Below are positions 53,625-56,950 of a stretch of DNA of 56,950 nt, piece by piece. The notes beneath the pieces are model-generated. The model ran no database searches and was not told the origin of the DNA. It worked only from the letters and a program-made list of their open reading frames with translations. Origin of the DNA: Planctomycetota bacterium (lineage in GTDB: Bacteria > Planctomycetota > Phycisphaerae > Phycisphaerales > SM1A02). The position numbers and the translations under genes are program-made. Positions within the stretch are counted from its first letter, which is position 1. Each line of letters begins with the position of its first letter. The DNA lies in the NCBI GenBank assembly GCA_016873255.1, contig VGXR01000012.1:1-56950 (forward strand). The letters are read 5' to 3'.

Positions 53625-53630
53625 GCGTTC

Positions 53631-53636
53631 ATGGTA
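53631..53636 (-). promoter_or_regulatory. Predicted -10 element (TACCAT) of sixA
   Basis: TACCAT exactly 6 nt before ATG 53624; shares two bases with the oppositely directed hutI box. Confidence 0.55.
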
Positions 53637-53640
53637 GTGT
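53635..53640 (+). promoter_or_regulatory. Predicted -10 element (TAGTGT) of hutI
   Basis: TAGTGT exactly 6 nt before ATG 53647; overlaps the sixA box by two bases. Confidence 0.5.
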
Positions 53641-53646
53641 CGAGGC

Positions 53647-54882
53647 ATGGCCGAGGGCCCGATCGCCATCGAGAACGCGCGCATCGTCACGTGCGAGCCT
53701 CCCGCCGACGGCGGCGCGCGCCGCGGCGGCGCGATGCGCGAGCTGCGTACGCTCGCGCGCGGGCACGTGATCGTGGAGGGCGGCCGCATCGCGGCCGTCG
53801 GCGACGGCCCCGCCGTGTCGCGCGCCGCGGCCATGCGGCTCGATGCCCGGGGCCGCGTGCTGATGCCTGCCGCGGTCGACTGCCACACGCACGCCTGCTG
53901 GGCGGGCGAGCGCTGGGGCGAATGGGAACTGAAGCGCGCGGGCGCCTCGTACCTCGAGATCCTGAAGGCGGGCGGCGGCATCCTGAGCACCGTGGCCGCG
54001 GTGCGCGCCGCGCCGCGCGATGCGCTCGCGTCGCGGCTGGCCGAGCGCCTGGCCGAGATGCGCGCCACGGGCACGGGCGCCGTCGAGGTGAAGACCGGCT
54101 ACGGGCTCGATGCCGCCACCGAGCTCAAGATGCTGGAGGCCATCCTCGCGGTGCGCCGCGTGTGGCCGGCGCCGGTGGTGCCGACGCTCCTCCTCGGGCA
54201 TGCGCTCGACAAGGACAGTCCCGCGCAGCTCGAGGACATGTGCGCGCTGCTCGAGCGCATCGCCGACCGCGTGCCGGGCATGGCGGTCGACTGCTACTGC
54301 GAGGAAGGCGCATGGACCGTCGAGATGTGCAGGACGCTCCTCGCAAAGGGGCGGCGCCTCGGCTTCGACGTGCGGATCCACGCCGACCAGTTCAACGCGC
54401 TCGGCGGGCTGGAGCTGGCGCTCGAGCTCGGGGCGCGCAGCGTCGATCACCTGGAGGCGAGCACGCCGCAGGGGATCGCCGCGCTTGCGGCAAGCCGCGC
54501 CATCGGCGTGGCGCTCCCGGTGTGCGGGTTCGCGCTCGACGGCCGCTTCGCCGACGGGCGATCGCTCATCGACCAAGGCGGCGCGCTGGCGGTGGCGAGC
54601 AACTGGAACCCGGGCAGCGCACCCAGCCCGAGCGCGCAGTTCGCGGCAGCGCTGGCCGGCCGCCACATGCGCCTCACCGCCGCCGAGGCGATCTGCGCCG
54701 TCACCTGGAACGCCGCGTGCGTCCTCGGCCTGCAGCACGAGACGGGCGCCATCCTGCCCGGCATGCGCGCGGACCTGCAGCTCCTGCCGCACCGCGACGA
54801 GCGCGCCTACGCCCACGAGGTCTCGGGCCCGGGCCCCGACGTCACCGTCCTCGGCGGCGACGTGTCCGTGCGCGTGGCCTGA
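53647..54882 (+). CDS. hutI: Imidazolonepropionase
   Basis: 411 aa amidohydrolase of histidine degradation that opens imidazolone-5-propionate to formiminoglutamate. Motifs: VDCHTHACWAGERWGEWELKRAGASY (metal His pair), KAGGGILSTV, VKTGYGL, IHADQFNALGG and SVDHLE. C-terminal MRADLQLL closes the amidohydrolase fold. No hutH, hutU or hutG is in the window. Start is 6 nt after a TAGTGT box. The map gene begins 21 nt downstream with its own -10-like box. Confidence 0.93.
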   Translation: MAEGPIAIENARIVTCEPPADGGARRGGAMRELRTLARGHVIVEGGRIAAVGDGPAVSRAAAMRLDARGRVLMPAAVDCHTHACWAGERWGEWELKRAGASYLEILKAGGGILSTVAAVRAAPRDALASRLAERLAEMRATGTGAVEVKTGYGLDAATELKMLEAILAVRRVWPAPVVPTLLLGHALDKDSPAQLEDMCALLERIADRVPGMAVDCYCEEGAWTVEMCRTLLAKGRRLGFDVRIHADQFNALGGLELALELGARSVDHLEASTPQGIAALAASRAIGVALPVCGFALDGRFADGRSLIDQGGALAVASNWNPGSAPSPSAQFAAALAGRHMRLTAAEAICAVTWNAACVLGLQHETGAILPGMRADLQLLPHRDERAYAHEVSGPGPDVTVLGGDVSVRVA

Positions 54883-54887
54883 ACCCG

Positions 54888-54893
54888 TAGCAT
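54888..54893 (+). promoter_or_regulatory. Predicted -10 element (TAGCAT) of map
   Basis: TAGCAT 10 nt before GTG 54904, in the 21-nt gap after hutI. Confidence 0.45.
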
Positions 54894-54903
54894 CCCGCGC
54901 CCC

Positions 54904-55719
54904 GTGATCATCACCGACCCGAAGGACATCGCCCATGCAGAGGCCGCCGCGGAACGCGTGGTGGAGGTGCACCGCCGCCTCGCGGGGTTCCTGCGCACCG
55001 GGCTGACGCTCGCGGAGATCGACTCGTTCGTGGGCAGCGCGCTCACGGACCTCGGGTGCGAGAGCTGCTTCCTCGGCTACCAGGTGCGCGGCCACCCGCC
55101 CTACCCGAGCCACGCCTGCCTCAGCCCGAACGCGTGCGTCGTCCACGGCACGCACACCATGACGCGCGACCCCGTGCAGGCGGGCGACCTGCTCTCCATC
55201 GACATCGGCGTCCGCCACAGGGGCTGGATCGGCGACGCCGCGTGGACCTACTCGTTCGGCGAGCCCGACAAGCTGGTGCGCGCGCTGATGGAGAGCGGCA
55301 AGGAGAGCCTCCGCCGCGGCATCGCCGCGATGCAGCCGCGCCGGCCGCTCATCGACTGGGCAAAGGCGGTGCAGCAGCACGTGGAGAAGGAGTGCGGCTT
55401 CCACCTGGTGCGCGGGCTCGGCGGGCACGGCATCGGCCGCAGCCTGCACGGCCCGCCGTTCGTCTCCAACGTGGTGCCCACGTATCCCGGCGAATGGGGC
55501 GAGGCCTGGAAGCCCTGGCAGCCCGGCATGATCGTGGCGGTGGAGCCCATGATCGCCGTCGGCACCACCGAGACCCGCACCAAGGGCCGCGAGTGGCCCA
55601 TCTGGACCGCCGACGGATCGCTCGCCGTCCACTACGAGGCCGACGTCCTCGTCACCGAGCGGGGGCCGCGCAACCTGACGGCCGGGCTGTTCGAGATGCC
55701 GGACGTGATCGCGGGGTGA
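54904..55719 (+). CDS. map: Methionine aminopeptidase, type I
   Basis: 271 aa. All five metal ligands are recognisable: Asp in LLSIDIGVRHRGW and GDAAWTYSFG, His in GLGGHGIGRSLHGPP, Glu in IVAVEPMI and Glu in VHYEADVLVTE. It removes the initiator Met from nascent proteins. Type I without insertion. GTG 54904. The SCFLGYQVRGHPPYPSHACLSPN segment forms the S1 region. Confidence 0.95.
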   Translation: MIITDPKDIAHAEAAAERVVEVHRRLAGFLRTGLTLAEIDSFVGSALTDLGCESCFLGYQVRGHPPYPSHACLSPNACVVHGTHTMTRDPVQAGDLLSIDIGVRHRGWIGDAAWTYSFGEPDKLVRALMESGKESLRRGIAAMQPRRPLIDWAKAVQQHVEKECGFHLVRGLGGHGIGRSLHGPPFVSNVVPTYPGEWGEAWKPWQPGMIVAVEPMIAVGTTETRTKGREWPIWTADGSLAVHYEADVLVTERGPRNLTAGLFEMPDVIAG

Positions 55720-55760
55720 GGGGGGCCCCAATCTCGTTGACCGAGGCCCCGCTCGGCCGC

Positions 55761-55766
55761 TAGCAT
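55761..55766 (+). promoter_or_regulatory. Predicted -10 element (TAGCAT) of GspF-like gene
   Basis: TAGCAT 26 nt before ATG 55793; it excludes GTG 55769 as start and leaves a short leader with AAGGA. Confidence 0.5.
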
Positions 55767-55792
55767 TCGTGGCCGAAGCAAGGAATTCCGAG

Positions 55793-56776
55793 ATGCCAAC
55801 CTTCCAATACCGGGCGTACGACTGCACGGGCGTCGAGGTCTGCGATTCCACAGAAGCTGCCTCGATGGCCGAAGTCGAGGAGTGGCTCCAAAGCTACGGA
55901 CTCGAAGTGCACGAGATCGAAGCGCTCCGTCCGATCCCGAACACGAATCACGCCCCGCCGGACCACCGCGACGCACGGGCCGAGCCGGCTCCATCATTCA
56001 TGCAGGAGCAGTCGCAGGAGCGACAGTGGGCCCGGTACAGCGACTCGCTCGACAGGTCCATCGACAGGTCCATCGACAAGTCCATCGACCGCGACGTCGA
56101 CGACCACGATGCGTTCACCGCGGCCTGGTACCTCCGGACTTCCGGTCTGGCCGAGGTCCGCCGCGGGACCCGAAGCGGCGATCGTGCGCTCACCATGCTC
56201 GAGACGCTGCTCTCGAGACGGATCAGCTTCCAGGCAGCGGTGAACGACCTCGCGGCCTCGGGTTTCAGGCGATCGGTCGGCCATGCGTTTGCGTGCCTCG
56301 CGATCGATGTGAACGGTGGCACCTCGATGCTTGACGCCATACGGCGTCATCGACGGCTGTTTGGCGACATGTCGATCGAGTACATCAGGCTCGGCGAGCC
56401 GAATTTCGGCGTCTCGGAGGCGCTGAGGCAGTACCTCCTGATGCGCCAGGCCCAGCAGTCCGTGGCTGGGCTCCGTCCCAGCGCAGCCTTCAGGGGAACC
56501 ACCCGCAGGTTTGCGCTTGCGTTTGCCGGGGCCCAGGCGCTGAGCGGCGACGTCCTCGGCAGCCTTCGTTGCGCCGCCATCGAGCTCCGCCGCCCGCTTC
56601 GCACTCGCGTCGCGAAGTCGCTGCGGGCGCTTCAAGAGGGGCAATTCCTCGCGGACGCGCTTCCGGCCCGATCGCTGTTCCGGGCCGGGTTCGAGCCCGC
56701 CTTCATCGGGCTCGTGCGCGCCGGACAGTCGAACTCGGCGCTCACCGAGGTGCTCCGGCTCGCGGCCCGGGCCTGA
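55793..56776 (+). CDS. GspF/PilC-like tandem-domain protein without transmembrane segments
   Basis: 327 aa. The opening MPTFQYRAYDCTGVEVCDSTEA... (first 45 residues) matches the N-terminus of type II secretion/type IV pilus inner-membrane platform proteins (GspF/PilC). Two helical F-domain-like cores follow: about 130-220 (LTMLETLLSRRISFQAAVNDL; HRRLFGDMSIEYIRLGE) and about 238-327 (LALAFAGAQALSG; RSLFRAGFEPAFIGLVRAGQ), both with the characteristic (A/L)GE or AGQ end. Normal GspF has hydrophobic helices after each core; none is seen, and the protein ends at the second core. Residues 85-100 are SIDR-type repeats. Start ATG 55793 with AAGGA at 8 nt. Confidence 0.7.
   Translation: MPTFQYRAYDCTGVEVCDSTEAASMAEVEEWLQSYGLEVHEIEALRPIPNTNHAPPDHRDARAEPAPSFMQEQSQERQWARYSDSLDRSIDRSIDKSIDRDVDDHDAFTAAWYLRTSGLAEVRRGTRSGDRALTMLETLLSRRISFQAAVNDLAASGFRRSVGHAFACLAIDVNGGTSMLDAIRRHRRLFGDMSIEYIRLGEPNFGVSEALRQYLLMRQAQQSVAGLRPSAAFRGTTRRFALAFAGAQALSGDVLGSLRCAAIELRRPLRTRVAKSLRALQEGQFLADALPARSLFRAGFEPAFIGLVRAGQSNSALTEVLRLAARA
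56051..56089 (+). repeat. In-frame 12-bp repeats encoding SIDR/SIDK
   Basis: Three 12-bp units (56051-56062, 56063-56074, 56075-56086), the third with one change, encode a Ser-Ile-Asp-Arg/Lys repeat in the linker of the GspF-like protein. Confidence 0.85.
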
Positions 56777-56807: not shown

Positions 56808-56950
56808 ATGCTGATCACCGCAACACTCGCCGCAACGTTCGCCATCCCGCCGCAAACCAAGGCCGCGCCCGTCACCGACGACTACGCCGGCACCAAGGTC
56901 ACCGACGACTACCGCTGGCTGGAGCCGCTCGAGAAGGACTCGCCCGAGGT
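56808..56950 (+). CDS. Prolyl oligopeptidase family protein (S9), partial
   Basis: Only the first 47 residues are in the window; the gene runs off the right end. A short hydrophobic N-terminus (MLITATLAATFA) may be a signal peptide. It is followed by PVTDDYAGTKVTDDYRWLEP, which matches the N-terminal motif of prolyl oligopeptidases (usually DDYHG...V.DPYRWLED). Catalytic residues lie outside. The start follows TACCTT by 6 nt. Confidence 0.75.
   Translation, partial: MLITATLAATFAIPPQTKAAPVTDDYAGTKVTDDYRWLEPLEKDSPE

Follow-up and report, generated by a model that had tools for sequence, protein, structure and literature searches.

Few essential components of type IV filament machines are as poorly understood as the GspF/PilC platform proteins of type II secretion and type IV pili, in part because membrane embedding makes their cytoplasmic (Cyto) domains difficult to study. 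Platform genes are usually, although not strictly, encoded with their ATPase and pilins. In the published PulF model, three platform chains form a ring of six Cyto domains in which Cyto1 alternates with Cyto2, and each of them binds a single N2 domain (N2D) of the six in the ATPase hexamer (PMC10790770). Cytosolic protein inhibitors of the ATPase PilB are known, namely Tip, Aqs1, Zip and CpiA (PMC11656802). The open literature searched yielded no description of a membrane-free platform form consisting of the N-domain, Cyto1 and Cyto2; such a protein, a variant of the known family that lacks transmembrane (TM) segments, is encoded by a selectively maintained, real gene of a freshwater bacterium of the Phycisphaerales.

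The gene (positions 55793 to 56776, forward strand; ATG at 55793, stop codon at 56774-56776, 327 amino acids; identified by Pfam match and orthologues) is located in a window of 56,950 nucleotides, which is one whole contig, ending at 56950, of a 2.78-Mb draft genome that is 97.5% complete. The Shine-Dalgarno sequence and promoter box pointed out in the first-pass annotation are present: AAGGAA (55780-55785, forward strand) is located 7 bases 5' of the ATG, and a promoter-like box TTGACC-18-TAGCAT (55737-55766, forward strand), a consensus match only, was found once against 0.2 expected from shuffles. The neighbours are hutI, an M24 peptidase gene (map-like) and a prolyl oligopeptidase gene; among the neighbour genes examined there is no adjoining secretion or pilus gene, as the same annotation had stated. 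The gene is near the right end of the contig but uncut, because the prolyl oligopeptidase gene begins directly after it at 56808; truncation through a frameshift or the contig end is ruled out by this next gene and by orthologues that share the end point. Very long wrong-strand open frames are also found in the window between 48836 and 55851 (e.g., 740 amino acids at 53629-55851, minus strand); these are by-products of high GC content, and therefore length by itself says little about whether an open frame here is a gene.

Alignment of the predicted protein against a set of 30 canonical GspF/PilC sequences, taken from this genome and related ones, delimits an N-domain (residues 1-47; 55793-55933, forward strand, as are all features of the gene), for which the model and a YkzG-like match also indicate the beta-beta-alpha-beta arrangement of GspF/PilC; a long, low-complexity linker rich in Ser, Ile and Asp (residues 48-126; 55934-56170) that is the least conserved part and probably disordered, with a pLDDT mostly below 50; Cyto1, the first GspF six-helix domain (residues 127-222; 56171-56458), recognised by Pfam and by a model of Cyto1 alone; a short joint (residues 223-234; 56459-56494) at the place of the canonical TM1-TM2 hairpin of approximately 100 residues; and Cyto2, the second six-helix domain and the most conserved part (residues 235-327; 56495-56773). 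The linker contains a 12-bp tandem repeat (56049-56089) that codes for Ser-Ile-Asp-Arg/Lys units, and similar acidic Ser-Ile-Asp repeats occur in the orthologues of genomes G404 and G128. The T2SSF family (PF00482) matches the whole protein with an E value of 1.4e-9 (38.4 bits versus a cut-off of 25.2) in two stretches that correspond to the two cores, which bears out the earlier alignment of both cores with GspF/PilC. The TM1-TM2 block (approximately 100 residues) and the C-terminal TM3 block are absent at the domain borders, the C-terminus being the point where canonical TM3 would start, so the chain does stop at the second core, as previously described. No membrane segment was found in the window protein, of which the Kyte-Doolittle 19-residue windows peak at 1.27 (threshold mean 1.6); every canonical homologue compared, whether from this genome or a related one, shows two to four segments over the threshold and a hydropathy maximum of at least 2.75.

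Structure prediction agrees with this domain plan. The model of the full protein, built from three sequences, is of moderate overall quality (pLDDT 57), and its N-domain (pLDDT 62-76) matches YkzG with Z 5.0, at moderate model confidence; YkzG is the relative also described for the N-domain of PulF (PMC10790770). Cyto2 of this model fits the PilC domain 2whn best, with Z 11.1 and 1.8 A over 91 residues, OutF, EpsF and TcpE ranking beneath it, and Cyto1 modelled alone (pLDDT 73) matches EpsF (Z 11.7), OutF (11.6), PilC (11.1) and TcpE (10.3), the first unrelated fold being at Z 5.5. Helical bundles may reach such Z scores by chance, but here the top ranks are held by one family, in agreement with the sequence match, and both cores superpose on solved PilC, EpsF and OutF domains at Z about 11. 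Thus hydropathy, alignment, predicted structure and orthologues of like shape agree with the first-pass annotation that this is a soluble tandem F-domain protein without membrane helices.

A profile search found the short form in 6 of the 181 genomes of the taxonomic family: the host's own genome, G128 and G404 of the same genus, G133, G142, and a broken copy in G126, which is of the same genus as G142. No further members were found outside the taxonomic family in samples of 400 order-level, 397 class-level and 392 phylum-level genomes; these wide searches fully scored only five candidates per genome, and therefore very divergent members may escape. Weaker order-level matches are short stretches in long frames, and those that were read are canonical platform proteins. 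A search of named genomes with the window protein itself gave no match; named records reached via the M24 peptidase gene place the genus among freshwater Phycisphaerales metagenome-assembled genomes, many of them lake-derived. The form consisting of N-domain, Cyto1 and Cyto2 is a small new branch of the known GspF/PilC family, rare and patchy in distribution.

The G404 orthologue (316 amino acids) occupies the same place as in the window, with the M24 peptidase gene on one side and the prolyl oligopeptidase gene on the other, and the G128 orthologue (360 amino acids, GTG start) lies across the peptidase gene from this place, with hutI as its other neighbour; both have the same domain plan and end point as the window protein. 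Membrane segments are absent by hydropathy and alignment from G404, G128 and a G133 member, which also shares the end point, its N-terminus being cut by the contig; hence the window copy is not a mere truncation of a gene that retains TM segments in its orthologues or in the homologue from another genus. G133 has two distinct short-family members (L079:1-924 and L080:3-572), each cut by a contig end, and the linker of one of them is built from Asp-Asn-His-Gly repeats. The G142 member (L078; L012:1501-2571, minus strand) has kept both cores but has no recognisable N-domain; because of one hydrophobic segment (Kyte-Doolittle 2.48, VLVVPVLIVLTPIWFPFFL) before Cyto1, off the canonical TM positions, this branch may be single-pass and membrane-anchored. 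The G126 copy (L077; positions 7450-8308 of contig G126:C32), which adjoins the same neighbour as the G142 gene, is a pseudogene with a 2-base deletion and a TAG codon in the second core, and therefore the short gspF gene can be lost.

Phylogenetic analysis indicates that the short family is monophyletic (100%) on a long stem branch (length 2.1), and descent from one of the three platform genes of the host's own genome, considered as an origin, is not seen in the tree. The nearest sister, weakly supported (58%), is a clade of gspF paralogues found beside gspE in related genera (L197, L198 and L199), with a TFQYRA-type start and, in L198 and L199, several pseudopilin-like genes. With support of only 58%, this sister platform paralogue, which was not seen in the host's own genome, is a possible source of the short form.

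The search for complete gspF/pilC genes proposed in the first-pass annotation revealed three in the host's own genome, all of them away from the window gene: a pilB-pilT-pilB-pilC operon (C57), a gspE-gspF-pseudopilin operon (C19) and a gspE-gspF pair (C3), named by family and position. Complete platforms and motor ATPases are present, and so possible targets exist for a platform-derived protein. In the proposed mechanism, an ancestral GspF/PilC platform protein would have lost all three membrane segments, leaving N-domain, linker, Cyto1 and Cyto2 as a soluble cytoplasmic protein, which would act in trans on the ATPase or platform of a type IV filament machine. The likeliest route is that the N2 domains in a hexamer of a GspE/PilB-type ATPase would serve as docking sites for its Cyto domains; otherwise the short protein would be taken up into the ring that Cyto1 and Cyto2 form in a genuine platform oligomer. 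Having no membrane part, it presumably could not move pilins, and the outcome would be that assembly is damped or gated.

The residues lost from the two cores temper this proposal, as does the gene's lack of linkage to a secretion operon in any carrier. The AGxP turn is gone (Pro96 and Gly94 in own_C57 numbering), as are the invariant or nearly invariant canonical Cyto residues Ala151, Gly156, Gly306, Gly321 and Glu364; the family-consistent substitutes at canonical invariant sites include Arg143, Arg218, Ser251 and Glu301. The GE motif of Cyto1 is retained in four of five short-family members and the Glu of the Cyto2 GE in one of five. With these invariant residues replaced, canonical interfaces may be altered, their loss would speak against a simple platform mimic, and a new partner becomes a serious rival reading, according to which the pair of F domains would be a neofunctionalised scaffold for another cytoplasmic partner, the ATPase and oligomer surfaces having gone out of use. 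The family-specific conserved residues that stand in for the canonical ones are consistent with such a scaffold, as are the long stem branch, the lack of secretion-operon linkage of the gene in any carrier, and the precedent of SpoIIIAB, a protein with a GspF-like domain outside the ordinary type II system (PMC2703783), the domain of which (PDB 6bs9) was matched in the fold searches at Z 6.6 and 7.8; but the N-domain, both cores and their order have been retained, as though the full cytoplasmic side of GspF remained important, and the neighbourhood points to no alternative partner. In view of the lost residues and their family-conserved substitutes, action of the GspF-derived soluble protein in trans on a secretion or pilus ATPase or platform can be proposed only tentatively, and a new partner is possible but somewhat doubtful.

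The short proteins diverge much faster than the products of neighbouring genes: identity among the window, G404 and G128 proteins is 35-46%, compared to 77-92% for flanking genes, with hutI at 75-82% and the M24 peptidase at 87-90% among the same three species. Such low identity would fit an old truncated gspF paralogue, dispensable and either slowly decaying or near-neutral, and the broken G126 copy with its deletion and TAG, the GC3 of 0.80-0.85 in short gspF genes (versus a mean of about 0.93 in the coding-like ORFs of the window) and the patchy distribution, in which a close relative of every same-genus carrier lacks the gene (G119, G081 and G025), point the same way. Absence is certain only in G119 and G025, in which the hutI, peptidase and oligopeptidase genes visibly adjoin, the drafts being incomplete. 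Against a remnant of this kind, clean domain borders are unexpected in a decaying membrane protein, and in four species the frames are open and stop at a common point, at identities of 23-46%. Between the window and G404, identity at third codon positions is 0.42 (0.35 expected from composition) and at second positions 0.68 (0.25 expected), i.e., conservation above chance is 0.11 at third versus 0.57 at second positions; residue identity is 60% in Cyto2, 44% in Cyto1 and 31% in the linker, and 4-fold sites are 45% identical. NG86 ratios are 0.41-0.74, crude values on near-saturated sites. Since third positions are almost saturated but second positions are retained, the codon pattern indicates that the short protein is under purifying selection, most strongly in the second core. 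The earlier suggestion of a decaying gene is therefore unsupported for the window copy, given its codon-position constraint and open frames in several species, although the G126 copy is a pseudogene. Rapid divergence, scattered occurrence and the pseudogene fit a dispensable gene, but a mere remnant is improbable.

Both gaps around the M24 peptidase gene are variable spots in the genus; in G081 (L085:6954-8849), two LuxR-family regulators of 314 and 317 amino acids occupy the gap from the M24 peptidase gene to the prolyl oligopeptidase gene. The different sites of the short gene (hutI-gene-map in G128, map-gene-prolyl oligopeptidase in the window and G404), the LuxR-type genes or nothing in the same gaps of other species, and the lower GC3 could fit an accessory gene that is rapidly exchanged as part of a mobile or defence-like pool, for example one that switches pili off against pilus-binding phages, but this is very improbable, as phage, plasmid and viral collections, also considered for its origin, gave no match, no mobile-element gene was seen beside the short gene, and, the deep species-tree nodes being weak (56-59%), gene and species trees are not in clear conflict. 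The gene tree groups the window and G404 members at 96% support; a clear conflict with the species tree was considered and dropped for the same weak nodes.

Returning to the proposal of action in trans, the short protein might represent a novel class of regulators of pili or secretion, which would sit on ATPase N2 domains or disrupt the Cyto1/Cyto2 ring and which species would quickly gain and lose, although in this specific form the idea is unlikely. If the protein does regulate, it would provide the cell with a new route to control pili or secretion; a natural membrane-free protein composed of N-domain, Cyto1 and Cyto2 would be a ready soluble probe of the contact between platform and ATPase.

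Compared with the GspF/PilC/PulF platform proteins (PF00482), the window protein shares the N-domain, Cyto1 and Cyto2 as well as their order, and has six-helix folds that match the solved domains of PilC, EpsF, OutF and TcpE, but it is without TM1, TM2 and TM3, several canonical invariant residues are replaced, and its gene has no ATPase or pilin genes beside it. It falls outside the platform proteins proper, because none of their three TM segments was found when looked for. With SpoIIIAB of the Bacillus sporulation channel it has in common a GspF-like helical domain outside the ordinary type II system; SpoIIIAB, however, has a single such domain, is a predicted integral membrane protein and is encoded in the spoIIIA operon (PMC2703783), whereas the window protein has two F domains and an N-domain, no membrane segment, and unrelated neighbours. 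With Tip, Aqs1, Zip and CpiA it would share the role proposed for it here, that of a soluble protein acting on a motor ATPase; those four are described as inhibitory peptides (PMC11656802), whereas the inhibitor proposed here would be derived from the platform itself.
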